Shown one piece after another: positions 2,210 to 33,794 of a stretch of DNA of 35,311 bases. Source of the DNA: an uncultured Pseudomonadota bacterium (GTDB lineage: Bacteria > Myxococcota_A > UBA796 > SXON01); assembly GCA_903921785.1 (NCBI GenBank), contig CAIXRH010000298.1, positions 1 through 35,311 of the forward strand. The letters run 5' to 3'. The position numbers were made by a program, and so were the translations under genes. Position 1 is the first letter of the stretch; every line of letters begins with the position of its first letter. The notes beneath the pieces are model-generated. The model saw only the letters and a list, made by a program, of their open reading frames with translations. It made no database searches and had not been told where the DNA came from.

Positions 2210-2231
2210 CGCCCGCGGGGGTAACACCTCG

Positions 2232-2237: not shown

Positions 2238-2245
2238 GGGCGCCC

Positions 2246-2482
2246 ATGTCCGCTGACTTGCCGGTCACCTTCTCCACGCTCCTCGTCTCCCTCGCCAGCA
2301 CCGCCCTCGCCCACCTCGGGCAGGCCGAGGGGGTGGACGTGCCTGTGGATCCCCGCCTCGCCCGCCACACTCTGGAGGTGCTCGACCTCCTGGAGCAGAA
2401 GACGCGCGGCAATCTGGAGGACGAGGAGGCACGCCTGCTCGACGCGCTCCAGAAGGAGCTCCGCGCCGCCCTCGCGCGCTGA
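2246..2482 (+). CDS. DUF1844 family protein
   Basis: The protein is small, with 78 aa and no signal peptide. It matches the DUF1844 pattern: a TFSTLLVSLASTALAHLG opening helix, then a D-rich link, LARHTLEVLDLLEQKTRGN and EEARLLDALQKELR. The full length of the family is about 80-110 aa, so this is complete or slightly short. The function of DUF1844 is unknown; members are found widely in deltaproteobacteria and other phyla. It is divergent from bamD, and no Shine-Dalgarno is visible before the ATG, consistent with a leaderless message from the TATAAG hexamer. Confidence 0.85.
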   Translation: MSADLPVTFSTLLVSLASTALAHLGQAEGVDVPVDPRLARHTLEVLDLLEQKTRGNLEDEEARLLDALQKELRAALAR

Positions 2483-2524
2483 GCCCACTCCCCCGAAAAA
2501 GCGCATGGCACCGGGCTCCCCGCA

Positions 2525-6306: not shown

Positions 6307-6457
6307 CGGGGCTCCGGGGACCGAAGGAACGGGTCCACAGCTCAGAAGACGTAGCCCGATGGAAATGGATGCAGGGGCCGCTCGGGAATCCCCTCCCCCC
6401 CGGATGTGTCCCGCCCGCCCGCCGGATAGCCCCCCCGGCCGAACCCCGGAGCCCCCG

Positions 6458-8025: not shown

Positions 8026-8103
8026 CAAGAACGCTACGATTCATAGCGAGCCGCCCCAGGGAGCCCCGTCCACGCTGGCACGGCGTTTGCCTTGCCCTCC
8101 GGC

Positions 8104-14661: not shown

Positions 14662-14922
14662 GCGTGCCGGCTCCCTCCGGTCGCCGTCGGCCTCCCTCCG
14701 GGGTCGGGCCAGAGGCCCTCCGTTCCGGCGCCGCGCGCGCCGGAACCGGCCGCGGCCCCGAGACGCACGCCGACGAGGCGCCCCGATGCCGCGCCCGCCC
14801 GCCGGTCCGCCTCACGCGACGCCGCCGAAACGATCCTGCGACGCGCGCGGCACCTCCCCCGACAGATTCTCGCGCGCGGCCGGCGCATCGTCGGCTATCG
14901 TAGGCGTACCCCCGGAGCCTTG
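14662..14922. other. Intergenic region with strong inverted repeat
   Basis: The 261-bp gap contains no supported gene. TTCCGGCGC (14723-14731) pairs exactly with GCGCCGGAA (14737-14745) over a 5-nt loop, about 60 nt after the sulfatase-fold stop; with no T-tract, it is a plausible but unproven terminator. The rest is GC-rich, with a GGCCTC/GAGGCC inverted repeat near 14689-14716. Close to the next gene a CTATCGTAGG stretch could hold a -10. Confidence 0.4.
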
Positions 14923-18101: not shown

Positions 18102-19790
18102 TCACCACCCGCCGAGGGCGCCGCCGTATGCGCCCATGTCGTTCGCTGAGCCGTCCCAGTCGAGCTCCGCGGGGTCCGCCGCGTCGGCGCAAGGGGATCC
18201 AGCGAGCAGCGTGAGCGTGTCGTTGTCGGGGTTGGCGTCGTCGCGGAAGTTGGTGAACATGCAGTCCACCGCGACGTTGCCGTTGGTGCCGGTGGGGTCG
18301 GTCACGCCCGCGAAGTTGGCGGTGTCGTTGTGGAAGCTGCTGTAGCTCATCGTGAGCGTGGAGCTGGTGAGCTGCATCCCGTAGGCGTTGCCCGCGAAGA
18401 TGGAGTTGTCCACCGTGATCTTGGCGTTGCGGGAGAGCAAGCCGTAGTCGTGGCTCACGACGTCGACGTGATCGAGCTGCAGCGTGGCGTCGTAGACGGC
18501 GAGGCCGCCCGGCGAGCTGGTGGGCTGGTTGGCGTCGAAGATGCTCGCGGTGAACCGCACCTCGCTCGAGAGGTCGGCGTACAGCGACGCCCACGCGTAG
18601 CCCTCGTTGGCGCCAACCCACGTGTTGAACGCATCGAGCTGCCCACCGGTGACGTAGAACGCCCCGCCGTTATACGCGTAATTGTCGCGGACCACCACCC
18701 CGTCGAGGACCAGCGAGCCGCCCTGAACGTAGACCGCCCCGCCGTAACTGGCGGTGACGTACTTGCTCGAACCGGAGGTGGTCTCTGCATATTCAGCGAG
18801 CAGGTTATCAGAGAGGATGGAGTCACGCAGGGTGATGGCCGCGCGGGACCCAACCGCGACCGCGCCACCGTAATACTTGGTGTAGTAGTAAGTGGTTCCC
18901 CCAGACGTGCCGGAGGAGGTGACCTGCCGGCCGCCGCCTCCGCTCAGCGTGAAGCCCTCCAGCGTCGCGAGCGTGGAGCTGCCCTCCGCCACCGTGAGCA
19001 CCGGCGCGGTGCCTGAGCCGGAGATGGTGGTCTTCGCGGCGCCCTCGGTGCTGCGCACCCAGAGATCGTCGGCGGGCCAGGTGAGGTCCTCCGAGTAGGT
19101 GCCGGGGCCGACGATGACGCAGGCGACGCCGGCCGTCAGCGCGTCCTGCACCTTGCGGTAGGGGTCGTCGACCGTGCCGGCGCCAACGCCCGCGCCGTGC
19201 TCGACCCACACGGGGTTGGCGGCGTCGGCGTCGTCACAGTCGTACGAGTTGGTCACGAAGGCGCCGACCTCCGGGACCTTGCAGGCCGCCGCGTGGGTGT
19301 CGGGGTCCCCCGCGCCGTCCCCGTCGGCGTCCACCCAGTAGTCGATGTCGGTGGGGAGACCTTCGTCCACCTCCCCGTCACAGTCATTGTCGACCTCGTC
19401 GCACGCCTCATCGGCGCCGGGCCAGGCGTCGGCGTTGTCGTCGTCACAGTCGGCCGTGCCGGAGGCGTAGCCCTCCGGGGCGACGCACGCGGAGACCGCT
19501 TCGCCGGCGCCGCCGTAGCCATCCCCGTCGGCGTCGAGATGCCAGCTCACGTCGGGGTCTTCGTCGATCGTGCCGTCGCAGTCATCGTCGACGGCGTTGC
19601 ACCCGTCCGCCGCCACCCCGGGGTTCACCGTGGCGTCGGCGTCGTTGCAGTCGACCTCCTCGGTGTACCCGTCTTCGTCGCGATCCGGGAGCGCCGCGCT
19701 GTCAGCCGTGTCGGCCCGCGCGGGCGAGCTGTCCTCCGTCGGCACGGCGGGACAACCAGCGAACATCACCACGAAGAGGGTCGGAAGCAT
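18102..19790 (-). CDS. MopE-repeat plus parallel beta-helix lipoprotein
   Basis: The protein has 562 aa. The signal MLPTLFVVMFAGC ends at lipidated C13, then an SADTADSAA spacer. Residues about 35-200 carry MopE-type metal-binding repeats (DRDEDGYTEEVDC, CNAVDDDCDGTIDED, DADGDGYGGAGEA, DEVDNDCDGEVDEG, DADGDGAGD). Residues about 215-555 look like a right-handed parallel beta-helix: DDPYRKVQDALTAGVACVIV is the usual start of such domains, followed by short GG-rich rungs (GGAVYVQGGSL, GGAFYVTGGQL, NSIFAGNAYG) and a closing AGSPCADAADP and GAYGG. This is the layout of surface proteins with a pectate-lyase-like fold; enzymatic activity is not evident. The -10-like TAGACT ends 7 nt before the ATG. 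Confidence 0.87.
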   Translation of the reverse strand: MLPTLFVVMFAGCPAVPTEDSSPARADTADSAALPDRDEDGYTEEVDCNDADATVNPGVAADGCNAVDDDCDGTIDEDPDVSWHLDADGDGYGGAGEAVSACVAPEGYASGTADCDDDNADAWPGADEACDEVDNDCDGEVDEGLPTDIDYWVDADGDGAGDPDTHAAACKVPEVGAFVTNSYDCDDADAANPVWVEHGAGVGAGTVDDPYRKVQDALTAGVACVIVGPGTYSEDLTWPADDLWVRSTEGAAKTTISGSGTAPVLTVAEGSSTLATLEGFTLSGGGGRQVTSSGTSGGTTYYYTKYYGGAVAVGSRAAITLRDSILSDNLLAEYAETTSGSSKYVTASYGGAVYVQGGSLVLDGVVVRDNYAYNGGAFYVTGGQLDAFNTWVGANEGYAWASLYADLSSEVRFTASIFDANQPTSSPGGLAVYDATLQLDHVDVVSHDYGLLSRNAKITVDNSIFAGNAYGMQLTSSTLTMSYSSFHNDTANFAGVTDPTGTNGNVAVDCMFTNFRDDANPDNDTLTLLAGSPCADAADPAELDWDGSANDMGAYGGALGGW

Positions 19791-19835: not shown

Positions 19836-20528
19836 TCACTCCTCGAAGCGGTAGCCGGTGCCGTGCACGGTGAGGATGTGCCGCGGATCGGCAGGCGTGT
19901 CCTCAATCTTCTTACGAAGCTTGAGGATCTGGTTGTCGACCGTGCGGGTGGCCATCGTGGGCGAATAGCCCCATACATGCTGGAGGAGATCCTCCCGCGA
20001 GACGTCCTTCCCCTTGTGCGCGATGAGGTACTGGAGCACCCCCGCTTCGTGCGTGGTCATCCGGTGTTCGATGCCGGCGCGCATGAGGATGCGCCGGCGC
20101 AGATCCACCTCGTTCGCCCCGAACCGGTAGTTCTCCGGCGCGCGGGGCGCCTCGGGGCGGGCCCGCAGGCGCGCGCGCACCCGGGCGATGAGCTCGCGCA
20201 GGGAGAACGGCTTGCTCACGTAGTCGTCGGCGCCGAGCTCCAGCCCGAGCACCCGATCGAGCTCGGCCGACTTCGCGGTGAGCAGGATGATCGGCACTTC
20301 CACGTGCTCGCTCTTGACCTTGCGGAGGACCGAGAGGCCGTCCATGCCGGGGAGCATCACGTCGAGCACGATGCAATCGGGGAGATCGTCCTCGATCGCC
20401 TCGAGCGCCTTCTCGCCCGTGTCGCAATGCGTGACCGAGAAGCGCTCATGTTCGAGCGCGGAGACCAGCCCCATCGCCAGGGTCTCGTCGTCCTCCACCA
20501 CCAGGATGCTCGCGCCCGAGGGTTCCAT
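19836..20528 (-). CDS. OmpR/PhoB-type response regulator
   Basis: The protein has 230 aa. The receiver domain has the acidic pair D13-D14, phosphoacceptor D56 in VLDVMLPGMDG, T84 and K106 in the ADDYVSKPF loop. The C-terminal winged helix (about residues 140-230) includes MTTHEAGVLQYLIAHKGKDVSRE, and ATRTVDNQILKLRKKIED before GTGYRFEE, diagnostic of the OmpR family. It binds DNA when phosphorylated. The ATG shares its A with the kinase TGA (TGATG), so they are coupled and cognate. It is the last gene of the cluster. Targets are unknown. Confidence 0.95.
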   Translation of the reverse strand: MEPSGASILVVEDDETLAMGLVSALEHERFSVTHCDTGEKALEAIEDDLPDCIVLDVMLPGMDGLSVLRKVKSEHVEVPIILLTAKSAELDRVLGLELGADDYVSKPFSLRELIARVRARLRARPEAPRAPENYRFGANEVDLRRRILMRAGIEHRMTTHEAGVLQYLIAHKGKDVSREDLLQHVWGYSPTMATRTVDNQILKLRKKIEDTPADPRHILTVHGTGYRFEE

Positions 20529-22594
20529 CAGCTTCTTCTCCGGATCTTCAGGATGAACTTCGCGCCGCCGCCGGTCCCGTCCACACACTCGACCTTGCCG
20601 CCGTGCAGTCGGGCCGTCTCCGCCACGAAAGCCAGCCCTAACCCGTGCCCCCCCGCCTTGCCCCGGCCCGCCCCCTCTACGCGACGGAAGCGTTCAAAAA
20701 TCGACCGGCGCTGCTCCGTCGGGACACCGAGACCGTCATCTTCGACCTCGAAGTAGACAAATCGTCCGGCCGCATGGGCCCGGAGCCACACCCGCCCGCC
20801 CCCCTCCGACTTCCGGTACTTCAGCGCGTTGTCGAGCAGGTTGGTGAGCGCGTCCCGAAGCAAGACCGGCATCAGCGTGAGCGTACCGATCGGCTGCACC
20901 TCGACGAACAGCTGCATCCGCGCGGCGTCGTACCGGGGGCGCCAGCTGGCCACGAGGTCCGTGAGCAGCGCGTCGACATCCGCGCTCACCGCGACGTCGT
21001 CCTCGGGGCGGGTCGCGGCCTTGATCACCTCGTTGACCCGCTCCGTGAGCCGCTCCGCCTCCTGCACGATCCGCCGGGCGAAGGCCTCCCGTTGGGCGTC
21101 GTCCCGGAAGGCGCCGATCTCCAGGTTCTCCGCCATCACCCGGATGCCGGCGAGCGGCGTCTTCAGCTCGTGGGAGACCCGCGCCACGAAGTCGCGCTGA
21201 CGTTGGAGGAGGAGGTCCTGCTGCCGGTCGGTGCGGACCAGCGCCAGGAGCGCCACCACGCCGATGGCGATGGCCATGCCGAAGGGCGCGAGCCGAAGGA
21301 CGAACGCCGACCGGCGCTGCTGCCCCGTGGGGATGACCGACATCGTGAAGCCCACGTGCAGGTTGGGCAAAAGGTGCGGAAGCGCCACGTCCACCGCCAC
21401 GTCTTCGCTGCTGCCCGCGACCACCCGCCCCGCGCTGTCGCGGATGGTGAGGTACCGAGCGAAGCGCGACTTCGCGTGGCCAAGGATGTCGCGAGCGAGC
21501 TCCACCTGATCGATCTGGATCGCCCCGGTGAGCTCCCCGACCCCGAGTCGGGAGACCAGCACCACCCAGGGAGGGTCATCGAGCGGGTCGAAGTTCACCA
21601 GCGGGTATTCGCCGAGCAGCGGGGTCTCTGGGCCGCCGATGGAGTCGCCCTGGAGCTCATGCCACGCGGCCAGCCTGCGCCTCGCCCGCTCCAGCGTCTC
21701 CTCGACGTCGGCAGGGAGTCCCATGCCCGGGCGATACACCGCGAGGTCTTGGGGGATCGGGAATTCCGCGAAGTCCATCACCCGCTCGAGCTCGGGACCG
21801 TCGAGCGAGCTGATCTCGTTGGCGAGCGCGACGATCCAGTCGGCCGCGCGACCGGATCGACCCAAAGCGGCCTGCGCGCGGGCCTCCTGCAGGCGTACGC
21901 CGACCAGGATCCGCGCGTCGACCCCCTCAGGGCGCGCCCCCTGCACGAGCGGGGTGGACGCGGGAGCGCGGAGCAGGAGCTCGTCGGCCTCGGCGGGCTG
22001 GCCGGCGTCGAGGAGCAGCTCAGCGGCCTCGGACGCGGCGAACAGCCGAAGGTTGAGGTCCGTGGAGGCGAAGCAGCGACGGTAACCCTCGGCGAGCACC
22101 ACCGGGTCGGGGATGGCGCCGGTGGTGGGGGCGGGGGGCGCCCCCAAGGCCGACGTCCCCGCGAAGCCCGGTTCGGGAGGCACCGCGAGGGCGCTGGGGA
22201 TGTCCGGACGCATACACGGCGCCCGGCGCATCTCGCCGACGTCCTTGTCCACGGCGGCGGGCGGGAAGATCATCTCATCGCGATCCCACACGTAGATGGC
22301 GTCGATGAGCGGCGTCCGACGCTCGGTTTCGAGCTTCGCGAGGTCGGCGGGCGTCTCGGTGGTGCTCATCTCCACCAAGAGCGGACGGAGGCGCTCCGCC
22401 TCGATGCGTCCCTCCGCGTCATCCACCAGCTGGGTGAGCTGATCCTGCAGGTCCCGGCGACGTTCGGCGGAGTAGCTCTGCTCGAACGAGCGTGCTTCCT
22501 GCACACCCAACGCCAGGATGAGCAGAAGGACAGTGGCGATTCCGGCGTAGACGAACGGCCGGAGGTTCCGCCGCTGCCGCGTCTTGGGCGTCAC
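20528..22594 (-). CDS. Sensor histidine kinase with large extracytoplasmic domain
   Basis: From the GTG at 22594 the protein has 688 aa. TM1 is at about 13-32 (FVYAGIATVLLLILALGV) and TM2 at about 434-453, enclosing some 400 extracytoplasmic residues that are helical and Ala/Leu-rich, perhaps TPR-like, with no recognised sensor family. The kinase core follows directly with no clear HAMP domain: H-box VSHELKTPLAG with H475, N-box LTNLLDNALKY at about 583-593, G1 EDDGLG at about 618-623 and G2 GHGLGLA at about 650. It should autophosphorylate on H475 and pass the phosphate to the downstream regulator. The start chosen forms a GTGA overlap with the upstream kinase-like gene; an ATG at 22645 is the alternative. 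Confidence 0.92.
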   Translation of the reverse strand: MTPKTRQRRNLRPFVYAGIATVLLLILALGVQEARSFEQSYSAERRRDLQDQLTQLVDDAEGRIEAERLRPLLVEMSTTETPADLAKLETERRTPLIDAIYVWDRDEMIFPPAAVDKDVGEMRRAPCMRPDIPSALAVPPEPGFAGTSALGAPPAPTTGAIPDPVVLAEGYRRCFASTDLNLRLFAASEAAELLLDAGQPAEADELLLRAPASTPLVQGARPEGVDARILVGVRLQEARAQAALGRSGRAADWIVALANEISSLDGPELERVMDFAEFPIPQDLAVYRPGMGLPADVEETLERARRRLAAWHELQGDSIGGPETPLLGEYPLVNFDPLDDPPWVVLVSRLGVGELTGAIQIDQVELARDILGHAKSRFARYLTIRDSAGRVVAGSSEDVAVDVALPHLLPNLHVGFTMSVIPTGQQRRSAFVLRLAPFGMAIAIGVVALLALVRTDRQQDLLLQRQRDFVARVSHELKTPLAGIRVMAENLEIGAFRDDAQREAFARRIVQEAERLTERVNEVIKAATRPEDDVAVSADVDALLTDLVASWRPRYDAARMQLFVEVQPIGTLTLMPVLLRDALTNLLDNALKYRKSEGGGRVWLRAHAAGRFVYFEVEDDGLGVPTEQRRSIFERFRRVEGAGRGKAGGHGLGLAFVAETARLHGGKVECVDGTGGGAKFILKIRRRS

Positions 22595-24729
22595 TGGAGG
22601 CACGGTCCGCTCCGCGTTCCCAGGGCTGTGCTGAGGAGTGCCCACGCGTGGGCGTTGTCGCCGGCCCCGTCCACCATCTCGGCCCCCGCCTCATCCGTGC
22701 ATCCGCGCGCCAAATCCCCGAGCGCGAGGCACCATTGGCCCCCCGACGTCACCGGCTGCCCCTTCTTGTTGTAGGTGAACTTCGCGTCGGCACAGCCGAT
22801 CCCGGCGGCCGTGTAGAGGTGGGTGAGCACGCTCGCCCGCGCTCGTCGATCGGTCGGCAGGTTGGCGAGCCGAAGGTCGGCGAAGTGCAGATAGGCCGGA
22901 ACGTCGTTGATGAACCCGGCCACCACCAGGCACTCTTCCTGGAGCTCCGGGCCGTTGACGGGCGCGTAGGGCATCCACGGCTCCGCGGCCCGACAGCGGG
23001 CGATGGCGGCCTCCCCGACGATGTCCGCCTCGGCGTTGCCGGTCTCCACGTAGCGCCCCGCCAGAGCGGAGCGGGCGCGCACCTCCTGCCACGCGGCCTC
23101 CACCCGAAGCCAGTTGTGATCGTCTCCCGGAGGGAGCGCCGACCAGAACGGCTCAATCGAGGCGGTCGCCAGCTCACAGTCGGTCGGAGAGATGACCCCA
23201 TGCGTGCGCCGACGGCAGGCCCCGGCGTACAACGTCGCCTTCGCGAGCATCGCCTCGGGTTCGTGCAGGCACTTGACCTCACTGACCGCCGAGCTCGCCG
23301 CGTCGAAGTCCGCCTGAGACCAGTCCGTGTCGAACTGCCAGCGTTGTTGCCAGACCATCGCCAGGGCACGGACGGCGCAGGTCCGGGGGGTCTCGTGGTT
23401 CTCCCACAGCCCCTCGGCCTCCTTCGCAAGGCGATCCCGCTCGGTCTTCCCGTTGAGCGCGATGTCGGTCTTGTGGACCTTGAGCTCCGCCATCAACCGC
23501 TCGGCCTCCTCATCCGCGGCGTTCTGCACCCACAGATAGAGGACCGTGCCCAGTGAGCACAGCGCGAGCCCCCCCAGGCCGAAGGCGGCGAACGCTGCCT
23601 GGCTCAGGCCGACGAGGATGCCGCGACAACCGCTGGCGCGCGCACCCGGCGGCGCCGAACGCGGCGGCGCCCCGCCCCCCCCGCGTTGCCAGCCCGGTCC
23701 GTTCCCGCCCGGCTCGGCCGGGCCACCGGGAGGCGGCACCTGGGCGCCCACCGTCCCCGAACCCGCGGTCGCGGTGCCGCCGCCCTCGGGGACCCGTTCG
23801 GTCGCGCTCCCGCCGCCACCCTCCGGCACCCGCTCGGTCGAGCTCGCACCGACCGGCGCGCGTTCTGTGGCGCCGACCGGGACCCGCTCGGCGCCGGGCT
23901 CCGGCGCGACGTCATCGACGGCGCTACAGTCGCGCCCGAGGGTGTCCAAAAGCGGCGCCGCAGGATCGAGCAGCCGCTGGCGGAGGTGGACGATCGCCGG
24001 CCGACAACGGGGATCGCGGGCGCGACACGCCCGGATCGGCTCCAGCCACGGCGCCGGGAGGTCCTCTCCCCAGAGCGCCGTGAGCACCCGCGCGAGCGCC
24101 CAGGTGTCGCTGCCGATCCAGGTCTCGCCGCGCTCGAGCTGCTCCGGCGCCGCCCATCCGCGCGTACGGTCGCGGCTGGGGGCCCCGACGTCCGCCGCGG
24201 GCACCTCGCGGATGGTGTCGAGGTCGATGAGGCCCACTCCGCCGTCCGGACGGAGCACCAGGTTCGACAACTTCAAGTCGCCGTAGGCGACACGACGGGC
24301 GTGCAGCTCGGCGAGGATGTCGAGGATGGCCTCGGTCGCGCGACCCCGGGCGCTCAGGCTCAGGGGCTCGGGGAGCTCGTGGAGCGGCGTGCCCTCGATC
24401 CAGGTGGTGCTGAGGTACACGTGCCCCTCAGCGGTGACCCCCGCATCCACCGCGCGGGGCCACCTCGGGGGAAACCCAGGGTCCGCGAGCAGCCGGGCGG
24501 CCACCGCGTAGCCCTCCAGCGTCATCGCGATTTCGTCGCCCAACGAGGCGATGCTTCCCCGCCCCTGCAGCGCAGCGTGGCGCACCACCCGCTCGAAGTG
24601 CCGGGGCACCGTTGAAGACCGCAGCACGCGCGTGACGCAGGTGACCCCCTCGCGCGCACACAGAAACACCCTCCGCTCCGGGCTGTCCCGGAGCATGCGG
24701 ATCAGCTCCTGGCCTTCTACCGGCGTCAC
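22591..24729 (-). CDS. Transmembrane Ser/Thr-kinase-like protein with Cys-rich extracytoplasmic domain
   Basis: The protein has 712 aa from a GTG in a GTGA overlap. Residues 20-255 are kinase-like: catalytic loop YGDLKLSN (D151, K153, N156), DLD in place of DFG (D169), and AAPEQ in place of APE (A194-E196). The N-lobe has no glycine-rich loop and no lysine before K153, so the ATP-anchoring Lys is missing; R34 in VTRVLR is the nearest match. A Pro/Gly/Ser linker (about 265-365) holds four ERVP/ERAP motifs. One TM helix lies at about 370-401. The C-terminal 310 residues contain about 11 Cys and helical repeats, with no PASTA. By position it corresponds to PknA/PknB of actinobacteria. It may be a pseudokinase or an atypical kinase. 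Confidence 0.85.
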   Translation of the reverse strand: MTPVEGQELIRMLRDSPERRVFLCAREGVTCVTRVLRSSTVPRHFERVVRHAALQGRGSIASLGDEIAMTLEGYAVAARLLADPGFPPRWPRAVDAGVTAEGHVYLSTTWIEGTPLHELPEPLSLSARGRATEAILDILAELHARRVAYGDLKLSNLVLRPDGGVGLIDLDTIREVPAADVGAPSRDRTRGWAAPEQLERGETWIGSDTWALARVLTALWGEDLPAPWLEPIRACRARDPRCRPAIVHLRQRLLDPAAPLLDTLGRDCSAVDDVAPEPGAERVPVGATERAPVGASSTERVPEGGGGSATERVPEGGGTATAGSGTVGAQVPPPGGPAEPGGNGPGWQRGGGGAPPRSAPPGARASGCRGILVGLSQAAFAAFGLGGLALCSLGTVLYLWVQNAADEEAERLMAELKVHKTDIALNGKTERDRLAKEAEGLWENHETPRTCAVRALAMVWQQRWQFDTDWSQADFDAASSAVSEVKCLHEPEAMLAKATLYAGACRRRTHGVISPTDCELATASIEPFWSALPPGDDHNWLRVEAAWQEVRARSALAGRYVETGNAEADIVGEAAIARCRAAEPWMPYAPVNGPELQEECLVVAGFINDVPAYLHFADLRLANLPTDRRARASVLTHLYTAAGIGCADAKFTYNKKGQPVTSGGQWCLALGDLARGCTDEAGAEMVDGAGDNAHAWALLSTALGTRSGPCLQ

Positions 24730-27700
24730 CGCTTTTTCTTCCCCTTCGCCTTCGCCTTCTTCGGGCTGGACGCCTCGGGGGCCGGCGGGGGCGGCGCCGG
24801 AAGGTAACCATGCGCCTGCAACGCCTCGATCGCGTCGATCGCGAGCGGACCCGCGGCGCTGGCGCCAAAGCCGCCGTGGGGGACGACGGCGGTGACGACG
24901 TAGCGGCCCGCGCCCTGACCACAGTCGGCGTTGCTGGACGGCTCCGCGATGGCCACGAACCACGAGTGCGGCCCGGTGACCTTCCCCGGACGGATGCCCC
25001 AAGGCGCTTCGTCACGGGTGCCCGGCGCGTCCGCCGTACCGGTCTTCCCGTAGATGCGTACCCCCGCGACCTTCGGGAGCTTCGCCCCGGTCCCCTTGTT
25101 CATCACCTGCTCCATCCCCGAGAGCAGCGGCGCCACCGAAGTGGCCGGGGGGAGCAGGTCCTTCCGCTCACAGGGTGCGCCAGCCTCCATGGTGGAGGGA
25201 CAGCGGACGTAGGTGCCACCGTTGGCGATCGTGCTGACGAAGCGCGCCGCCTGCATCGGGCTCCAGCTCCCGGCGCCCTGTCCGAAGCCGGTCTGGGCGA
25301 GCCGTCGGCTCCCCCCTTCCCCGAAGCCCGTGTACGCGCCGTCCTTTTCGTCGAGCACGCCGGGATTGCCGAACTCCACGCCATCGGTACGCAGTCGCCG
25401 GTAGGGCTCCGGCCCGAGCTTGAGCCCGAGCTGGCCGAAGTAGACGTTGCTCGACTTCGTGATCGCCTGCACGAGGTCGAGCGTGCCGTGGGCGCCGCCG
25501 TCGCCGTGGTCGTGGATCGGCTTGGTCCATCCCGGGAGAGCGAAGCTCGGACGGCCGTCGTCCACCTGGTCGCAGACGAAGCTGGGCGACGCCGAGGTGG
25601 GACACGCGTCGGGCTGGAGCTCGGCGGAGACGATGCCTTCGCGGATCGCCAAGAACGCGGTGAGCGTCTTGAAGACCGAGCCGGCCTGGAAGACGCCGTG
25701 GGCGCCGGTCTTGTCGGACCAGGGCCCGTAGATGCCCATGAACTTCTTCTCGTCGGCGCGGCGCAGCGGGCGCCACGCCGTGCCTCCCGGATCGAAGTCC
25801 GGCCACTGGGCACGAGCAAGGACGGCGCCCGTGGTCGGGTCCATCACCACCACCGCGGCGGCGCCGACATGCCCTGGACCGGTCGACTTCGTGGCCGCCG
25901 CCTTCGCGGCCGCGGCGAGGTCGGCTTGGAGCTTCGCGTCGATCGTGAGGGTGACGCTCCGCTCCGCGACGGCGTCGGCGAGCGTGCGAAGCGCGGCGGC
26001 CCGCTCGGCCAGCGGCATCCGGGCAATGGGAAGCAAGGGACGCAGGTCGGGATCGTTGAGCGTGAGCTGGCGCAGATCGCCGGTTGCGCCGCGGGCGGCA
26101 GCACGACGGGCCGCGGCGGCAGCACCGTCCCCTCCCCCGCCGTCCTCCCGGGCGAGGACGATCTGCGGCGTGCCCCGAACCGAGGAGAGCCACACGGTGG
26201 GGCCAGAGGGAAGGTCGGGCCAGCCGCGGAGCTTCCCGTCGAGCTGGCGTTCGAGCTGCCACGCGGCGCGGGCCACCCCGCGGTCCGCCGGACCGAGCAC
26301 CGTACCGAACGCCTCGCCGAGCGGGTTCACCCGCGCCCCCGCGGTGGGCGACGCGGCGAGGACCTCGCCGTTCCGATCGAGGATCGAGCCCCGTCGGACC
26401 TGGTTCGCCAGCCCGGTGAGGCGGGGATCGTGACGGATCCACGGCGTGCCGTCGTCGAGCGTGGTGACGACCCCTCGGAGCGTGGTCTCGTCGCGGTTCA
26501 ACACCGACCGCACCCCGGTGGCGACCGCGAGGCCGAGCCCGAGGAGCACCAGGGCCACCCGGAGGTGCTGCACGCCCAGACGCAGCTCGGCGAGCTCCTC
26601 GGTGTCCGCCCGATACCGGCCGTCTTCGCCGAGGCGCACCAGCAGGGCGAGCACGCCGAGCAGCGCCACCGTGCCGGTCTTGCCGAACGACAAAAACGGC
26701 ACCACGACGCCGGTGAGCGGGAACAGGCCGAGCGTCCCACCCAGGATGACGAAGGCCTGCCCCGTGAGCAGGAGCCCCAACGAGGCCGCGATCATCACCC
26801 GCTCAGGGGTACGGTTGAAGGCCGCGACCCGGAGGCCGTCCGCCACCGACACCGCGAGGAGCGCGAGGTAGGCCACTCCGCCCGCCTCCCCGAGCACCTC
26901 CACGAGGTGGGCATAGATGAGGTCGGTGTGTCCGGCAGGGAGCGCCCCAGGGATGCCCGACCCGACCCCCGAGCCGGTCCACCCGCCGGCGCCCATCGCC
27001 CACCACGCCATCGCGAGCTGGTCGCCAAAAGGGCGGGCGTTGAGCCAGGGGTCCCGCCACATGTCGACCCGAAGCGCGAGGGTGGACGAGGGGGCGAGGT
27101 CCGGATCGTGCCAGAACAGGGCGAGGAGCGCCGCGGTGAGGGCGACGGCCGCGAAGACCCACACCGGAGAGCGGGTGACCACGTAGAACAGGCCCAAGAA
27201 GACGAACGCCAGGATCAGCGTCGGGCCGAAGTCGTGGACGGCAAACAGGGCCGCCCAGCCGGCCACCAGGATCGCGACGGCCACCAGGAGCAGCCGCGGA
27301 CGGGGGATCCGCAACCAGCCGGGGCCGACCCGATGCCACCTCAGCTTCAGCGCCCGGGCACCGAGCGCCCCGCCCACGGCCACCGCCACGCAGAGCTTCA
27401 CCACCTCGATCGGCTGGAACCCCCAAAGGTTGATGGTCTGGCCCGACTGCCCGGGCGCCGTACCGAACGCCGCGAGGAGGTCGACGAGGACCACCGCCAG
27501 CCCGATGAGGCCCCACCGCGCGCGAGTGAGCAGCGCGCCGATGTCGCCAGGGATCACGAGGAGGAGGGCGCCGGCTGCCCCGGCGTAGAGCACGCCCTCT
27601 GCGAACGCCGGCCCCGGCCACGACGCGGCGAACGGCGAGCCGTACCCGGTCTGGAGCGCAAAGCCGAGGCCAAGGGCCGCGTAGGCGGCCGGCATGGAGA

Positions 27701-27947
27701 ACGGGGCGAGGATGTGCTGCCCCTTGCGCACGAAGCCCCCGTAGACCCGTGCCACCGCCAGGAGCAGGCCCGCGGCGGCGAATTCCCAGCCCGCCGTACT
27801 GAGCTGGGCGTGGAGGGCGGTCGCGTCCCCAGCTTCGCCGCGGAGGGTCGCCGCGGTGATGCTGCCGTCGAGGGCGCGCGCGGCGAACCACGGCCCGAGC
27901 GCGGCGACGAGCACCAGGAGCAGCGGCTCCAGCAAGAGCAGGATCAT
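24726..27947 (-). CDS. RodA/FtsW (SEDS) glycosyltransferase fused to PBP2-type transpeptidase
   Basis: The protein has 1073 aa. Residues 1-480 are a multi-pass SEDS domain: GFQPIEVVKLCVAVAVGGAL, HDFGPTLILAFVFLGLFYV, GGWTGSGVGSG and the LPAGHTDLIYAHLVEVLGE loop (D342, likely the conserved catalytic Asp), then GLFPLTGVVVPFLSFG. Residues about 510-1050 are a class B PBP: a VRRGSILDRNGEVLA pedestal segment, the SVFK motif (S757, K760), SSN at 832-834 and KTG at 968-970. SEDS proteins polymerise glycan and the PBP cross-links it; normally these are two proteins (RodA and PbpA/PBP2). The chain has no stop or frame change between halves. The C-tail is Pro- and Lys-rich. A GAGGAG site precedes the ATG at 27947. 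Neighbours are the PP2C gene upstream and the kinase-like gene downstream. Confidence 0.92.
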   Translation of the reverse strand: MILLLLEPLLLVLVAALGPWFAARALDGSITAATLRGEAGDATALHAQLSTAGWEFAAAGLLLAVARVYGGFVRKGQHILAPFSMPAAYAALGLGFALQTGYGSPFAASWPGPAFAEGVLYAGAAGALLLVIPGDIGALLTRARWGLIGLAVVLVDLLAAFGTAPGQSGQTINLWGFQPIEVVKLCVAVAVGGALGARALKLRWHRVGPGWLRIPRPRLLLVAVAILVAGWAALFAVHDFGPTLILAFVFLGLFYVVTRSPVWVFAAVALTAALLALFWHDPDLAPSSTLALRVDMWRDPWLNARPFGDQLAMAWWAMGAGGWTGSGVGSGIPGALPAGHTDLIYAHLVEVLGEAGGVAYLALLAVSVADGLRVAAFNRTPERVMIAASLGLLLTGQAFVILGGTLGLFPLTGVVVPFLSFGKTGTVALLGVLALLVRLGEDGRYRADTEELAELRLGVQHLRVALVLLGLGLAVATGVRSVLNRDETTLRGVVTTLDDGTPWIRHDPRLTGLANQVRRGSILDRNGEVLAASPTAGARVNPLGEAFGTVLGPADRGVARAAWQLERQLDGKLRGWPDLPSGPTVWLSSVRGTPQIVLAREDGGGGDGAAAAARRAAARGATGDLRQLTLNDPDLRPLLPIARMPLAERAAALRTLADAVAERSVTLTIDAKLQADLAAAAKAAATKSTGPGHVGAAAVVVMDPTTGAVLARAQWPDFDPGGTAWRPLRRADEKKFMGIYGPWSDKTGAHGVFQAGSVFKTLTAFLAIREGIVSAELQPDACPTSASPSFVCDQVDDGRPSFALPGWTKPIHDHGDGGAHGTLDLVQAITKSSNVYFGQLGLKLGPEPYRRLRTDGVEFGNPGVLDEKDGAYTGFGEGGSRRLAQTGFGQGAGSWSPMQAARFVSTIANGGTYVRCPSTMEAGAPCERKDLLPPATSVAPLLSGMEQVMNKGTGAKLPKVAGVRIYGKTGTADAPGTRDEAPWGIRPGKVTGPHSWFVAIAEPSSNADCGQGAGRYVVTAVVPHGGFGASAAGPLAIDAIEALQAHGYLPAPPPPAPEASSPKKAKAKGKKKR

Positions 27948-27974
27948 CGTCGACTCCTCAGGCGAGGCTCGGGA

Positions 27975-29288
27975 TCAAGGGGGAGCTCCGGCCGCGGGGC
28001 CGGGAGCGGGAGCGGCCGGGGACGGAGCGGCCGGAGGCGGAGCCGAAAGGGGGGGTTCGACGCCGGAGGGGACGACCGACTCCTCGGGGATCACCCCGAC
28101 GTCCCGACGGGAGACGAGCCCGTCGCCCTCGATGACCAGGGCCCCCTCTTCGCGCAGCCGCACGTGTTCAAGGATCGCTCGGGCCCCCTTGGGGACCACC
28201 AGCCGAAGCCGACCGCCCTCCACCCGCACGTCGCGAACGAGCACCTCCCCGCCCTCGGACAGCTCCAGGGACAGGTCACGTTCGAGGTCCAGGACGTCGC
28301 GATCGAGCTGCACATCGGCGTTTCCGCCGACGCCGACGATCCAATCGCCACCGGTGATGCGCTGGCCGGTGACCCGCAGCACCCCCCCCGATCGGACCTC
28401 GGTGTGCGTGGCGCTTGGCACCACCAGCTCGCCAGGAGCCCCGAGAAGGGACTCCGCGCTGACGACGCTCGGCAATTCGGCACGGCCCCCCGACCGCCCA
28501 TAGGCGAACCAGAGCCCGACCGCGACCGCGACCAGCGCGAGTCCGGAGAGCACTCCCGCCCAGGGACGGGCCGGCGCGGCGCCCCGCCGGAAGCGGCCGA
28601 CGCGGATCACCACGACGGTGACGTTGTCCGTTCCCCCGGCGGCGAGCGCCATCCCCACCAGGCGGGTGGCCGCGGCGTCGGCAGGGCGCCCATCGGCGCG
28701 AAGGCGCACCAGCTCCCTCCCGAGCTCCTCCGCCGGCACCATGTCGTGGAGGCCGTCGCTGCAGAGCACCAGCAGGTCGCCGCGGGCCACGCGGCTCCGC
28801 CCGGTCTCCACCCAGTCCCCCTGCAGGTCCCGGCGCCCGAGATCGCGGGCCACCTGTCGCTTCTTCCCTGGAGCGGCGTCCGCGAGGTGGTCGTGCGTGA
28901 GTTGTCGGACGCCGTCGGCGCCCACGAGGTAGGCGCGGGAATCGCCGACGTGCGCCCAGGCCACGACCCCGCCCCGGTCGTCGAACCGTAGGGCGGTGCC
29001 GACGGCGCCCATCCCCTCCTTGCCCCGGTCCGCGTCGGCCTCCGCGAGGATCCGGTCCCTCGCGACGCGCAGCGCCTGCGCGAGCACCGTCTCCCCGGCG
29101 AGCTCGGGCACGTCGGGCACCTCCGCGACGGCGGCCACGGCGATGGCGGCCGCCACCTCGCCGGCCTGCTCCCCGCCCATGCCGTCGATCACCGCGAAGA
29201 GCCCCGCCGCGGGGCGACACACCCAGGCATCCTCGTTGGAGCTGCGGACCTTGCCGGGGTGAGTGCGGGCCGCAGCGTCGAGGCTCAC
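27975..29288 (-). CDS. PP2C-type Ser/Thr phosphatase with membrane anchor
   Basis: The protein has 437 aa. The PP2C core (about 1-232) has RSSNED (15-20), DGMGG (35-39, metal Asp D35), HVGDSRAYLV, the SDGLHD metal site (D178) and GGTDNVTVVV (D221, N222). It needs Mn/Mg and removes phosphate from Ser/Thr. One TM helix lies at about 243-263. The remaining 170 residues are extracytoplasmic and made of short strands (ADVQLDRDVLDLERDLSLEL, GEVLVRDVRVEGGRLRL), ending in a Pro/Ala-rich tail. Its position between the FHA genes and the RodA fusion is that of pstP. The start is a GTG in a GTGA overlap with the FHA gene upstream. It probably counters phosphorylation in the same locus. Confidence 0.92.
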   Translation of the reverse strand: MSLDAAARTHPGKVRSSNEDAWVCRPAAGLFAVIDGMGGEQAGEVAAAIAVAAVAEVPDVPELAGETVLAQALRVARDRILAEADADRGKEGMGAVGTALRFDDRGGVVAWAHVGDSRAYLVGADGVRQLTHDHLADAAPGKKRQVARDLGRRDLQGDWVETGRSRVARGDLLVLCSDGLHDMVPAEELGRELVRLRADGRPADAAATRLVGMALAAGGTDNVTVVVIRVGRFRRGAAPARPWAGVLSGLALVAVAVGLWFAYGRSGGRAELPSVVSAESLLGAPGELVVPSATHTEVRSGGVLRVTGQRITGGDWIVGVGGNADVQLDRDVLDLERDLSLELSEGGEVLVRDVRVEGGRLRLVVPKGARAILEHVRLREEGALVIEGDGLVSRRDVGVIPEESVVPSGVEPPLSAPPPAAPSPAAPAPGPAAGAPP

Positions 29289-30112
29289 CGCGTCACCGTG
29301 CCGCGCCAGGCGCCGCCGCCGAGCCCGACCGCGGCGGGAAGCACCGCCCGCACGGCCTCGCCCTCCGCGAGCGCGACCCCGGCCACCTCCACCGGGTTCG
29401 AGCCCGGGAGCCGGACGATCTCCGCTTCGTTCCCACGGATCGTCACCGAGATGTGCCGGCGGCTCACCCGCGGTCCTGCGCCGGGGAGCGCGAGGTGGTC
29501 CGCGCCGACGTCTGGCGCGGCACGGCCGAGCGCCATGGGTCGGCCCTCCGGCAGCCCGATCGAACCGGCTTCGCAGACCACACGGAGGCCACTCTCCCGC
29601 TCGGTGGACTCCGGCGCCTTCGGCGCGGGCTTGGCGATGCGGTCGGCCCGCATGGTGATCTCGCCGGGCACGACCGGGGCCTGGGCGAGGTCCTTGCGGT
29701 GCCGGACCCGGAGCACACCGCGGCCCTCGTTGAGCTCATCTCCCTCGTCGACGACGAGCGCGACGAGGAACCCTTCGGGCATGCGGGCATCCCGACGCAC
29801 GATCTCCTCATTGAGCAACGAGAGGAGATCCGTGCGGAGCGCATCCTCTACGTCGCGGAGTCGGTCGTGGTCGGGCCGAGAGAGGAAGATGCGGTACTCA
29901 TTCCACAGCCAGGCTCGACCCTGGACGTCGGTGAAGTCGCACGCGTCCATCACGGCGACGATGGCCTGCGCCAGCGCTTGCCCGTCCACGGTGACCGGGG
30001 CCGGAGCCCGGACGAAGATCGACTCGATCGACTTGCCGATTCCCTTCCGGCTGCGCCTGGCCTTCGAGAAGTCGACCAGGAAGGTGCCAGCGTTCGCTCC
30101 GCGCGTGATCAC
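29285..30112 (-). CDS. FhaA_N (DUF3662) and FHA domain protein
   Basis: The protein has 275 aa. The N-terminal part (about 15-135) matches the FhaA N-terminal domain: FSKARRSRKG, ALAQAIVAVMDACD and NEYRIFLSRPDHDRL. A linker (about 140-175) contains ST and E-rich residues. The FHA domain (about 176-265) has a full motif set: LGRAAPDVGADHLAL, then RVSRRHISV with S217 and H220, and the SNPVEVAG turn. FHA domains read phosphothreonine. In actinobacteria FhaA lies two genes from pstP and links kinase signals to wall synthesis. The start is the GTG at 30112 in a GTGA overlap with the upstream FHA gene. Confidence 0.88.
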   Translation of the reverse strand: MITRGANAGTFLVDFSKARRSRKGIGKSIESIFVRAPAPVTVDGQALAQAIVAVMDACDFTDVQGRAWLWNEYRIFLSRPDHDRLRDVEDALRTDLLSLLNEEIVRRDARMPEGFLVALVVDEGDELNEGRGVLRVRHRKDLAQAPVVPGEITMRADRIAKPAPKAPESTERESGLRVVCEAGSIGLPEGRPMALGRAAPDVGADHLALPGAGPRVSRRHISVTIRGNEAEIVRLPGSNPVEVAGVALAEGEAVRAVLPAAVGLGGGAWRGTVTR

Positions 30113-30819
30113 GCGGCCTCCAGGCGCAAGGCGATGCGGGCTTCCCGGCCGTCGTGGAACTCTACGCGGTCGCCCAGCGCGACGGGCACGCGACCCGAGG
30201 CGGTCATCGCCGGACGACGGGGGGTGCCGTCTCGGGGGAGGACCACGACGAATTCGCCTTGGTCACGAGCCTCGATCTCGAAGCCAGAGCCGGTGCGGCG
30301 CAGGATGGCCGCGCCGCGGGAGAGCCAAGGCGCCGCCTCGGCGAGCACCACGTCGTTCTGTACACGGTTGTCCGTATGCCACCGGCCACGGCCGATGCGC
30401 CATTCCCGGCGAGCCGGGCCGATCGGGTACCGGTCGCCGTCGTGATCCCCGCCTTCCACCACCAAGACCCCGAGCACCGGGGCGGGGTCCTCCACCACCT
30501 CCACCCCGTCGCGCTCGCCCCGCTCCACTTCCCAGCGCCGGGCGGGGAGCACGGAGGGGTCCAGCCGCTCGTTGAGCAGGCGCGCCGTGATCTCACGCTC
30601 CGTGGTCGGGTCGGCCGCCCAGCCACGCAGCGTCTCCAGGGAGCCCTCCCTCGCGCTCACCCGGAGGATGACCCCCGGCGGAAAACTCGGCTCGCCCTTG
30701 AGGTCGCGACGAGCGAGATCGAGGATCCCTCGGGCAGCGAGCGAGACGAGGTCGGCACGGCCGAGCTCGCCGTCGGTGTCTGCGGCGAACGAACGCCGCA
30801 AGTCGTCGAACCAGCGCAT
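30109..30819 (-). CDS. FHA domain protein, first gene of the cluster
   Basis: The protein has 236 aa. The N-terminal 110 residues have weak similarity in layout to FhaA_N (DLVSLAARGILDLARR, PGVILRVSAREGS, EREITARLLNE). The FHA domain (about 115-235) has WRIGRGRWHTDNRVQNDVVL, but the usual VSRxHA is LSRGAA (S167, R168, G169): the His is replaced, so phosphopeptide binding may be weak or lost. A strong AGGAGG site precedes the ATG at 30819, and its stop overlaps the next start as GTGA. It leads the minus-strand cluster; upstream sequence (30820-30901) separates it from the FHA-GGDEF gene. Confidence 0.85.
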   Translation of the reverse strand: MRWFDDLRRSFAADTDGELGRADLVSLAARGILDLARRDLKGEPSFPPGVILRVSAREGSLETLRGWAADPTTEREITARLLNERLDPSVLPARRWEVERGERDGVEVVEDPAPVLGVLVVEGGDHDGDRYPIGPARREWRIGRGRWHTDNRVQNDVVLAEAAPWLSRGAAILRRTGSGFEIEARDQGEFVVVLPRDGTPRRPAMTASGRVPVALGDRVEFHDGREARIALRLEAA

Positions 30820-30901: not shown

Positions 30902-32179
30902 TCAACCCTCGGAGGTGAGCACCCGGTTGCGCCCCTCACGCTTGGCGCGGAGCAGCGCCTTGTCCGCACGGGCCATCCACTCCCGGGCCGCCTCACCCGT
31001 TCGCCACTCGGCGACCCCGGCGCTGATGGTGGCCTTCAGCCCAGGCGCGGTGCGCGACCAGTCATGCGCCTCCACGGCCTGCCGGATCCGGTCCGCCACG
31101 TCGGCGGCCCCGGAGAGTGGGGCGTTATGCAGGAACATCAAGATTTCTTCGCCGCCGTACCGCACGCAGGCATCCTGATCGCGCACGTCGTAGAGCATCA
31201 GGCGCGAGCACCCGACCAGCACATCGTCGCCGATGTGGTGACCGAAGGTGTCGTTGACCTCCTTGAAGCGGTCGATATCGAAGAAGATGCAAGAGAGCGG
31301 CTCCCCTCGGGAGGCTCGCTCCATGAGCGCGGGGAGGTCTTCGTCGATCCAGCCGCGCGTGAGCAGACCGGTCAGCGGATCGCGGTTCTGCAGCTTGAGC
31401 CGAGAGATGACGTTGGAGAGATGGGAAATCTCCTCCATCGACAGCATCTCCAGCCGCAGCGAGACGCCCCCGACCTCGATCTGGTCGCCCGGACGGATGA
31501 CCGCCCGAGACACCGGTTGCCCGTTGACGGACGTGCCGTTGGTGCTGCCGAGGTCGTAGATCACGACCGTGAGGTCCTCCTGGACCACCACCCGCGCGTG
31601 CCGACGGGACACCAGGGCATCGGTGAGCACCATGCTCGCGGCCTCGTCTCGCCCGAGGATCACCTCATCGACCCCGTGCAGGGTGACGTAGGAGAGCATG
31701 TCCCGACCGGCGACGACCCGGAGGGTCGGAACCTCGATGCGCGTTCGCAAATTACGCGCATCTATTCTACACTGCTGGGTGATCTCGCTGTCGTGCTCAA
31801 CCAAGGTGGAGGCCTGACTCGGCCGGGGCAGCCCTCGCGCGCCACTCGCGACACTCCCGGTCCTCGGCGCATCAAAAACATCATCGGCCTCCACCCATCG
31901 CGAGTCGCGGGGCGGTACGGTCGTGGGCGGTTTGTGGCCGGGGGGTGGGACCATGGGAGAGCGTCCTCGAGGCTCCGTCGACGGATCGACCGAGTTCACA
32001 AATACCGGCGGCTCGTAAGCGGAGCGGCCCCGGATTTCAAGGGGCGCCGACGGATGGGGACGGGAGGGAACGGCGATGACACGGCCTCGGGGATCGGCCG
32101 CGGGCCCATCGGACGTGAGGCGGGCGCTCAAGCTCGCGGAATCCTCAACCTCCGGCTGGCGTGACCGAAAGGAGGCCAT
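30902..32179 (-). CDS. FHA-GGDEF diguanylate cyclase
   Basis: From the ATG at 32179 the protein has 425 aa. Residues 1-145 are Pro/Ser/Arg-rich and look disordered. The FHA domain (about 155-245) has LGRDEAASMVL, LVSRRHARVVV and LGSTNGTSVNG, the full phosphothreonine set. The GGDEF domain (about 265-425) has NRDPLTGLLTR, FFDIDRFKEVNDTFGH and the active site RYGGEEI (342-346), with the inhibitory-site RxxD (RDQD) five residues upstream. It should make cyclic di-GMP, gated by phosphopeptide. The start is ambiguous: GTG at 32218 adds 13 residues, and TTG at 31750 would drop the low-complexity part; codons near 31740-31770 are unusually AT-rich and include TAGAAT. It ends 82 bp before the FHA gene at 30819. 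Confidence 0.9.
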   Translation of the reverse strand: MASFRSRQPEVEDSASLSARLTSDGPAADPRGRVIAVPSRPHPSAPLEIRGRSAYEPPVFVNSVDPSTEPRGRSPMVPPPGHKPPTTVPPRDSRWVEADDVFDAPRTGSVASGARGLPRPSQASTLVEHDSEITQQCRIDARNLRTRIEVPTLRVVAGRDMLSYVTLHGVDEVILGRDEAASMVLTDALVSRRHARVVVQEDLTVVIYDLGSTNGTSVNGQPVSRAVIRPGDQIEVGGVSLRLEMLSMEEISHLSNVISRLKLQNRDPLTGLLTRGWIDEDLPALMERASRGEPLSCIFFDIDRFKEVNDTFGHHIGDDVLVGCSRLMLYDVRDQDACVRYGGEEILMFLHNAPLSGAADVADRIRQAVEAHDWSRTAPGLKATISAGVAEWRTGEAAREWMARADKALLRAKREGRNRVLTSEG

Positions 32180-33794
32180 GTGCACCACCAGCGGCTTCTG
32201 GCCCCGCGACGCCGCCACCCGTCTCGTCCTCGCGCGTCACCTCCTGCACGGCACGCCCGCTCCCGAACGCGATGACGACGGCTTCGTGGCGGCATGCCGC
32301 GCGGTGGCCGGGCTGCCCAACCCGTCGCCCTCCCCCGCCCAGGTCGCCGCGCAGGCGCGGTTCGGGTTCGGTCCCCGGGGTGCCGCGGAGCCCCTGGTCA
32401 GCATCCTCATCTGCACCTTCAACCGCGCGCATTGGCTGAAGGAGGCGATCGCGTCGGCCGCGGCCCAGGACTGGCCCTGCGAGATCGTGGTCGTCGACGA
32501 CGGCTCCAGCGACGACACCGACACCGTCCTCGCCACGACGCCTGGCGTCTTGACCCTGCGCCACGCCGAAAACCGCGGGAAGCCCGCCGCGCTGGAGCTC
32601 GGCATGAGCGTCTGCCGAGGCGACGCGGTGCTCGTCCTCGACGACGATGACAAGCTGCTCCCCGGCGCGGTCCGCGCCCTGGCCACGGCGCTGTTCGCCG
32701 ACGAGACGCTCGCGGCGGTCTTCGGGGATACCCTGGTGTTCGACGACGCCGATGGAGCGGTTCTCGATTGGAAGCCTGCCTCGCGGCTTCCCCGGGAGCT
32801 GACTCGCCGCGCGGTGCTCACGACCATCCCCGCGATGCCCGGGGCCACGCTCGTGCGTATGTCCGCGCAGCTCGACCTCGCGCCGTTCGAGCCTACGCTG
32901 GTCCGCGGGCAGGACATGGACCACTACCTCCGGCTCTCCGCGCTCGGCCCGATGGCAGCGGTGCCGCTGCCCATCCAGCTGTACCGCCGACACGACGGGC
33001 TCCGGGGGGCGGCTCAAGCGCGCTGGAAGAAACACCAGGACCCCGCGGAACACCGTCGGCGGTTCTTGGGCTACGTGCAACCCGTGTTCCGCGAACGCTG
33101 GCAGGCGGACGTGCACGGCCGCGACGAGGGGTTCGCCTGGGCCCTCGGCCTCGCCGAGCGAGACCTCCCTGGGCTCGCGCAGCAGGAGCTCGCCCGGTGG
33201 CCGTTCCCCGACTCCCCCCACGAAGCCTGGGTGCGCAGCCGGCTCGGGCTGACGACCCACCCGGCGCGGGCCGATGAACCGGGTTGGCTGGTGCTCGACG
33301 ATGGCGACGAGGGGGCGCTCCACGCGCTCCTCCATGCGCTGGCGCCGACCGGGCCGGTGGAGGTGGTGGTGGGGCAGCTCCGCGAGAGCCTCGGGAGCGC
33401 CCAGCTCTTCTGGCCTGGGGACTATCGGATGGAGACGGTGCTCCGCCCTCGTGGCCGGGTGCTCCGACTCGCCAGCTCCGCCTCCCCCGAGTGGCGCTCG
33501 CCGCCCGTTGAAGGGACCTGGCTCCCCGCCTTGCCGCCGAGTCAGGTCGCCACGGCACTCTCCGCCGTCGCGGGTTGGCCGCCCCCGGTGCGCTCCCGCG
33601 CCGTCCGGGGCGACGCGCTGCTCCCGATCACCAGGCGCTGCATCCAGATGCGCAGCCCCGACACGGCGACCGCGCTGGCGGCCACCGCCGACGTGCTCGA
33701 GCGGATGCCCCAGTGGATCCCGGCCCGAGCGCTGGCCGCGGCAACCTGCCGGCGCGCGGGGCTGACCCGTGAAGCCGAGGTCCTCGCCGGTTGA
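32178..33794 (+). CDS. GT2-family glycosyltransferase
   Basis: The protein has 538 aa. The GT-A domain (about 71-300) has EPLVSILICTFNRAHWL, IVVVDDGSSDDTDT, NRGKPAALELGMS and a VLVLDDDDKL metal-binding site (D155-D158). RGQDMDHYLRLSALGP and YRRHDGLRG follow in the acceptor half. The donor sugar and acceptor are not known. The C-terminal 200 residues have no named domain; they include segments with several Leu/Ala helices. The ATG at 32178 has AAGGAGG ending only 2 nt upstream, which is close for a ribosome site. Its start codon overlaps the FHA-GGDEF ATG on the other strand within CATG. A hairpin follows the stop. Confidence 0.85.
   Translation: MCTTSGFWPRDAATRLVLARHLLHGTPAPERDDDGFVAACRAVAGLPNPSPSPAQVAAQARFGFGPRGAAEPLVSILICTFNRAHWLKEAIASAAAQDWPCEIVVVDDGSSDDTDTVLATTPGVLTLRHAENRGKPAALELGMSVCRGDAVLVLDDDDKLLPGAVRALATALFADETLAAVFGDTLVFDDADGAVLDWKPASRLPRELTRRAVLTTIPAMPGATLVRMSAQLDLAPFEPTLVRGQDMDHYLRLSALGPMAAVPLPIQLYRRHDGLRGAAQARWKKHQDPAEHRRRFLGYVQPVFRERWQADVHGRDEGFAWALGLAERDLPGLAQQELARWPFPDSPHEAWVRSRLGLTTHPARADEPGWLVLDDGDEGALHALLHALAPTGPVEVVVGQLRESLGSAQLFWPGDYRMETVLRPRGRVLRLASSASPEWRSPPVEGTWLPALPPSQVATALSAVAGWPPPVRSRAVRGDALLPITRRCIQMRSPDTATALAATADVLERMPQWIPARALAAATCRRAGLTREAEVLAG

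Follow-up and report, generated by a model that had tools for sequence, protein, structure and literature searches.

Control of cell wall synthesis by phosphorylated threonine (phospho-Thr) and FHA proteins has been studied mainly in polar-growing actinobacteria. The actinobacterial fhaA-pknB operon is well known (PMC11898655). In Mycobacterium tuberculosis, PknB phosphorylates the tail of the MviN pseudokinase; FhaA is thereby recruited and wall synthesis controlled (PMC12599244, PMC6180346). Natural fusions of a SEDS protein and a penicillin-binding protein (PBP) in a single open reading frame (ORF) have also been mentioned (PMC10449877). Here we describe a locus that combines these elements in an uncultured bacterium. 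The window is the whole 35,311-nt contig CAIXRH010000298.1 of a 7.48-Mb assembly (GCA_903921785.1) that is 96% complete. Positions 19836-30819 carry seven adjacent open ORFs, all real and all on the minus strand. The first-pass annotation read them as FHA, FhaA_N-FHA, PP2C, RodA-PBP2 fusion, kinase-like protein, histidine kinase and OmpR regulator, and Pfam and predicted structure bear out this order. We think it probable that the locus encodes a phospho-Thr-regulated, single-chain peptidoglycan synthase whose SEDS and FhaA_N domains are of the same stock as the actinobacterial locus.

The SEDS::PBP fusion and its relatives

The fusion matches two Pfam families in one chain, FTSW_RODA_SPOVE (9.5e-35) and Transpeptidase (6.9e-30), and the fused state is kept in 8 aligned proteins. 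Asp342 of the SEDS half is invariant in this alignment. By the HTD motif it matches D297 of Escherichia coli FtsW, a putative catalytic residue (PMC8765783). In the PBP half the SXXK, SXN and KTG motifs are conserved, the first two as SVFK and SSN. Both catalytic sites are intact, and the protein is predicted to be an active enzyme. Like other natural and engineered SEDS-PBP fusions, it places glycosyltransferase and transpeptidase in one chain. It may differ from those described (PMC10449877) in its operon of FHA, PP2C and kinase genes and in its conservation within one lineage of Myxococcota. An incomplete literature search on this locus, on the Rod system in Myxococcota and on DUF3662 outside actinobacteria turned up no account of the locus.

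GTDB genome contigs were scanned with the fusion alignment, giving 24 related loci. Nearly all are from uncultured metagenome-assembled genomes (MAGs) named Myxococcota, 'Deltaproteobacteria' or 'proteobacterium'; one is named Acidobacteria. The fusion is conserved in every locus with the whole gene, and the junction is open in every relative checked. In L074 the fusion needs a frameshift, which is probably an assembly error. In-frame TGA codons in relatives were considered as a sign of unfused genes and rejected, since the frame reads through the junction in all those checked. The order orfA-fhaA-PP2C-fusion-kinase is found in 15 loci. Because the fusion and most of the gene order recur in the 24 loci, the locus is not a chance assembly. 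In the close family, 14 loci continue with the histidine kinase and regulator, which are missing from L067, L073 and L077. In L068, L070 and L071, fhaA lies directly ahead of the fusion with no PP2C between. The ancient core is FHA-FhaA-SEDS::PBP, usually with PP2C and kinase. The two-component pair was added later, because distant relatives that keep the core are without it; it had already been set apart from the core in the first-pass annotation. A search of plasmid records with the SEDS protein of the window gave no match. The same operon is present in L057 (CAMAWH010000052.1) and L066 (CALQBK020000179.1), titled Klebsiella pneumoniae and Bifidobacterium breve, which are evidently mislabelled MAGs.

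Kinship with the actinobacterial locus

The actinobacterial comparators are chromosome pieces filed as plasmids. Pieces of Nocardia, Tsukamurella, Nonomuraea (11.85 Mb) and Actinomyces chromosomes in the plasmid collection carry the fhaA-pknB locus (L078-L081, L142, L143); viral contigs hold no actinobacterial locus. The annotation of Tsukamurella (L079) and Actinomyces (L081) gives DUF3662-FHA, FHA, PP2C, FtsW/RodA, PBP2, kinase and PknB. In Tsukamurella the PP2C lies in a stretch that the gene table leaves blank, and PstP matches there. The window has the same FHA, FHA, PP2C, SEDS, class-B PBP and kinase order as these two genomes and as M. tuberculosis Rv0020c-Rv0014c. The FhaA_N domain, the SEDS clade and a PP2C followed by a membrane segment are also common to both kinds of locus. 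In the window, however, SEDS and PBP are fused, the second FHA gene carries FhaA_N (in actinobacteria the first does), and the host has two membranes. There is no membrane-anchored FhaB and only one kinase, atypical and with no PASTA domain, and a two-component pair and an FHA-GGDEF gene are added. The claim of an actinobacterial-type locus in the first-pass annotation therefore holds for gene order and for SEDS and FhaA_N kinship, and fails for FhaB, the PASTA kinase and the second kinase.

Trees had been proposed as a way to tell transfer from independent assembly, with grouping among unrelated deltaproteobacterial paralogs as the refuting outcome. The SEDS trees, sampled without Chloroflexota, place the domain with actinobacterial-locus RodA. 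In a maximum-likelihood tree of 95 SEDS domains, a branch supported at 99 has the two on the same side. In a 71-row tree they are split together from all FtsW, RodA and SpoVE (UFBoot 100, SH-aLRT 99). The approximately unbiased (AU) test rejects grouping of the fusion SEDS with canonical RodA, the MrdB clade (p=0.0028), and with FtsW-like proteins (p=0.021). Two extra N-terminal transmembrane helices, seen by hydropathy, are common to the fusion and actinobacterial-locus RodA and lie mostly outside the tree columns.

The FhaA-like protein matches FhaA_N (PF12401, 4e-6), a domain that Pfam finds among 14 controls in Corynebacterium only, and hhalign pairs it with actinobacterial FhaA (prob 95.5, E=1.6e-8). 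Shared ancestry with the actinobacterial locus is supported for the SEDS domain and FhaA_N by these comparisons. In the linker of the FhaA-like protein, T-[EDQ]-R is kept in all 8 of the 8 sequences. In one relative (L036, G142:C102) the FhaA gene is broken by in-frame stops in the assembly, by sequencing error or decay. A weak FhaA_N match in a genome of another family (G026) was rejected as a related locus, as no other part of the cluster is found there.

The product of orfA has no Pfam match. Its AlphaFold model (pLDDT 76) matches the FHA domains of GarA, OdhI and FhaA (Foldseek prob 1.00, TM-score by target ~0.65, best E 1.8e-3). Its α/β N-terminal domain matches that of Rv0020c (2lc0; prob 0.93, E 0.044) and may be FhaA_N-like in fold. 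Profile comparisons of orfA with FhaB, FhaA and the neighbouring fhaA are all empty, so the FHA fold is known from structure only and an assignment as FhaB was dropped. As its sequence has no hydrophobic segment at the N terminus and does not match the FhaB profile, orfA is not a membrane-anchored FhaB. The PP2C protein (PF00481, 2.8e-14) has M. tuberculosis PstP as its best PDB match (1e-23), and its metal-site Asp is invariant in 10 aligned proteins.

Several results weigh against our reading. The fusion sits on long branches, 1.68 (SEDS) and 2.32 (PBP) changes per column, and a long-branch artefact may have affected the placement of either half. For the PBP half, the AU test gives p=0.089 for the fusion with PbpA and p=0.10 with PBP2, and the best tree places it as FtsI/SpoVD-like at 93/87. 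The PP2C tree does not join the PP2C of the fusion loci with PstP. PBP and PP2C are thus not demonstrably of actinobacterial origin. Both FHA domains have diverged: the FHA His is replaced by Ala in orfA, and in the FhaA-like protein the Pfam FHA match (0.034) is below cut-off. The fhaA profile finds no convincing FHA match in the PDB.

The behavior of PBP and PP2C in these trees agrees with independent assembly. On that view, local FHA, PP2C and kinase genes came to lie beside a SEDS/PBP pair native to Myxococcota, and the mycobacterial-like order is convergent. Independent assembly also agrees with a kinase unlike PknA/PknB (26% over 174 aa to PknA) and with PP2C lying outside the operon in the three loci named above. 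However, in the trees the SEDS half falls with RodA of the actinobacterial locus, away from the RodA and FtsW of Myxococcota, and the match of FhaA_N is to the FhaA of actinobacteria. The SEDS-then-PBP arrangement is also that of actinobacteria, whereas canonical Myxococcota, E. coli and Pseudomonas aeruginosa have PBP2 then RodA. We consider independent assembly unlikely and prefer common stock with the actinobacterial locus for SEDS and FhaA_N.

Kinase-like protein, TxRV motifs and operon layout

The kinase-like protein matches Pkinase in Pfam (7.1e-11), and its kinase domain has the kinase fold (Foldseek, best E 8e-9). The model also has a disordered linker (272-384), a long helix (378-421) and a helical C-terminal domain. 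The extracytoplasmic domain is all-helical with conserved Cys, and Pfam finds no PASTA in it. An invariant Arg34 takes the place of the VAIK Lys, the Gly-loop is absent and DLD replaces DFG. Because of the Arg and the absent Gly-loop the activity of this protein is uncertain; it may be inactive, a further point against our reading. It could instead be a pseudokinase scaffold whose linker TERV motifs receive phosphate from other Ser/Thr kinases, as MviN does from PknB. The MviN-FhaA precedent (PMC12599244) speaks for this, as does L074, where the place of the atypical kinase is taken (5465-8152) by an ordinary Ser/Thr kinase that carries an FGE-sulfatase domain. On the other hand, an alignment of 7 of these proteins shows no variation at Asp151, Lys153 and Asn156 of the catalytic loop, at the metal-binding Asp169 or in the APE motif. 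POMK, an atypical kinase without the β3 Lys, can still bind ATP, as cited in PMC12599244. We give the scaffold role a little under an even chance.

The kinase linkers are rich in TxR[VLI] motifs. The 18 proteins scored have 36 between them, compared with 1.1 expected after shuffling of the linkers, and each linker has at least one (18/18). A hydrophobic residue three places after Thr is a common preference of FHA domains, and TxRV fits it. The TERV motifs are candidate sites for docking of FHA proteins on phospho-Thr. The TxRV motif is not seen in PknA/PknB or FhaA of two actinobacteria, so it is specific to the present variant. We propose docking of FHA proteins on phosphorylated TERV because of this enrichment and, by analogy, the MviN-FhaA interaction of M. 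tuberculosis (PMC12599244, PMC6180346). Both systems involve wall synthesis, a membrane protein whose kinase domain is degenerate, and an FhaA-type FHA protein that is proposed to be recruited by phospho-Thr. Unlike in MviN, the kinase domain here is not fused to a lipid II flippase and its kinase residues are better kept, while the TERV motif lies in the linker and its phosphorylation is only predicted.

Most neighboring genes overlap by 4 nt, with a 27-nt gap ahead of the fusion (Table 1). As read from the sequence, the GTG start of the histidine kinase overlaps the kinase stop by 4 nt, and an ATG at 20528 gives the regulator a 1-nt overlap with the histidine kinase stop. Cotranscription is likely because of these 1- to 4-nt overlaps. 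A sigma-70 promoter scan of the locus found none, a scan that is uninformative for a GC-rich host. An FHA-GGDEF gene lies 82 nt upstream of orfA in the window; in two close relatives (L037 and L038) it shares 4 nt with the gene that follows it. The operon is therefore probably one gene longer than first described, with FHA-GGDEF at its head. The GGEEI active site of this protein is intact and its FHA residues are retained. The regulator gives MtrA/YycF/PhoB-like NCBIfam scores, all under the equivalog cut-offs. MopE-type repeat proteins adjoin the operon, one of them also with FG-GAP repeats.

Table 1. Features of the locus and other features of the window
Feature	Position	Strand	Basis
orfA, cytosolic FHA-fold protein, α/β N-terminal domain	30109-30819	-	Foldseek on AlphaFold model; conserved in relatives
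FhaA-like protein: FhaA_N, linker, divergent FHA	29285-30112	-	Pfam PF12401 and hhalign
PP2C phosphatase, probable transmembrane segment, C-terminal extracytoplasmic region (PstP-like layout)	27975-29288	-	PF00481
SEDS::class-B PBP fusion, single 1073-aa chain	24726-27947	-	Pfam and 8-protein alignment
Asp342 codon in fusion	26922-26924	-	HTD motif alignment to E. coli FtsW D297
Atypical transmembrane Ser/Thr kinase or pseudokinase	22591-24729	-	Pkinase Pfam, kinase fold by Foldseek
Two TERVPE motifs (Thr298, Thr310) in kinase linker, candidate phospho-Thr/FHA docking sites	23791-23838	-	Motif enrichment
Membrane histidine kinase	20528-22594	-	Pfam HisKA 3e-12, HATPase_c 7e-23
OmpR-type response regulator	19836-20588	-	Pfam Response_reg 3e-30, Trans_reg_C 2e-24
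FHA-GGDEF diguanylate cyclase	30902-32218	-	Pfam GGDEF 2e-36, FHA 4e-18
MopE-type repeat protein	18102-19790	-	
MopE-type repeat protein	14920-17094	+	
BamD	1424-2506		

A mechanism can be proposed from these parts. In the observed architecture SEDS and class-B PBP are permanently joined, which would keep polymerisation and crosslinking at 1:1. The membrane kinase or pseudokinase would sense an envelope signal via its extracytoplasmic domain. The TERV Thr would be phosphorylated by the kinase itself or by another Ser/Thr kinase. FHA proteins would then dock on phospho-TERV and scaffold or gate the synthase, and PP2C would reset the phosphorylation state. In the close family the added two-component pair and the FHA-diguanylate cyclase probably couple wall synthesis to transcription and cyclic di-GMP. 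The suggestion that a phospho-Thr module feeds a His-Asp relay stays a conjecture.

Host genome and the Rod system

The host is supported as a two-membrane, Myxococcota-like bacterium, because the relatives of the locus are Myxococcota MAGs and BamD is present. The BamD and MopE features reported earlier for the window are confirmed. LptD is not found by Pfam in the window genome and was dropped as proof of an outer membrane in favor of BamD; a divergent LptD or a different lipopolysaccharide export is possible.

The window genome has two SEDS genes, ftsW beside murC and the fusion. MreC has no PF04085 match in the 96% complete assembly, and canonical RodA and a PBP2-type PBP are not detected in it. 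MreB gives two strong matches (contigs C131 and C68). Of the remaining transpeptidases, one is FtsI/SpoVD-like; the rest match the class-B profile only weakly and in part, and are presumably class A PBPs. Given that FtsW is present and MreC, PBP2-type PBP and canonical RodA are undetected, no SEDS enzyme other than the fusion is a candidate for non-septal wall growth in this genome. The canonical Rod system (MreBCD, PBP2/MrdA, RodA/MrdB) also pairs a SEDS protein with a class-B PBP, and MreB-like genes are present here. It differs in that the fusion SEDS falls outside the RodA clade (AU p=0.003), in the MreC and PBP2 not found here, and in the gene order described above.

In the phylum sample, MreC is found in 153/189 genomes, with 0/12 in the family of the window genome and 3/33 in its order. 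Most other genomes of the order have a single SEDS, FtsW. Within the family, most of the members sampled carry the fusion. The many genomes with FtsW as single SEDS and no MreC suggest that the Rod system was lost repeatedly or ancestrally in the order. One history, which we regard as possible but less likely than not, is that MreC-RodA-PBP2 was lost and its job passed to the single-chain SEDS::PBP of actinobacterial stock, switched by phospho-Thr and FHA-TERV contacts and later wired to the two-component pair and cyclic di-GMP. Two observations count against such a replacement. Three distant members (G215, G218, G219) have the fusion as well as canonical RodA and MreC, so it is not a replacement there. 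Outside the family, most genomes of the same order have neither MreC nor the fusion; MreC loss therefore does not require the fusion. An exact match between MreC loss and fusion gain was rejected on these grounds. The simplest history has the fusion predating Rod-system loss in the lineage.

The same observations fit a fusion that is a specialised synthase (polar, developmental or stress) and not an elongation enzyme, restricted by phospho-Thr control to a life stage. The link of FHA-GGDEF and the two-component pair in the close family fits as well. In the window genome, however, the fusion is the only SEDS beside FtsW, and it occurs in most sampled members of the family. We treat a specialised role as possible, though doubtful.

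If the locus encodes a phospho-Thr-regulated synthase of partly actinobacterial stock, a two-membrane relative would separate the general parts of the system (FHA and SEDS-PBP) from the actinobacterial ones (PASTA kinase, FhaB, polar scaffold). The fusion offers biochemistry a natural, obligate 1:1 SEDS-PBP, and TERV a testable docking motif. In lineages with apparent Rod loss and the fusion as the only second SEDS, its role would become directly testable once a relative is cultured.

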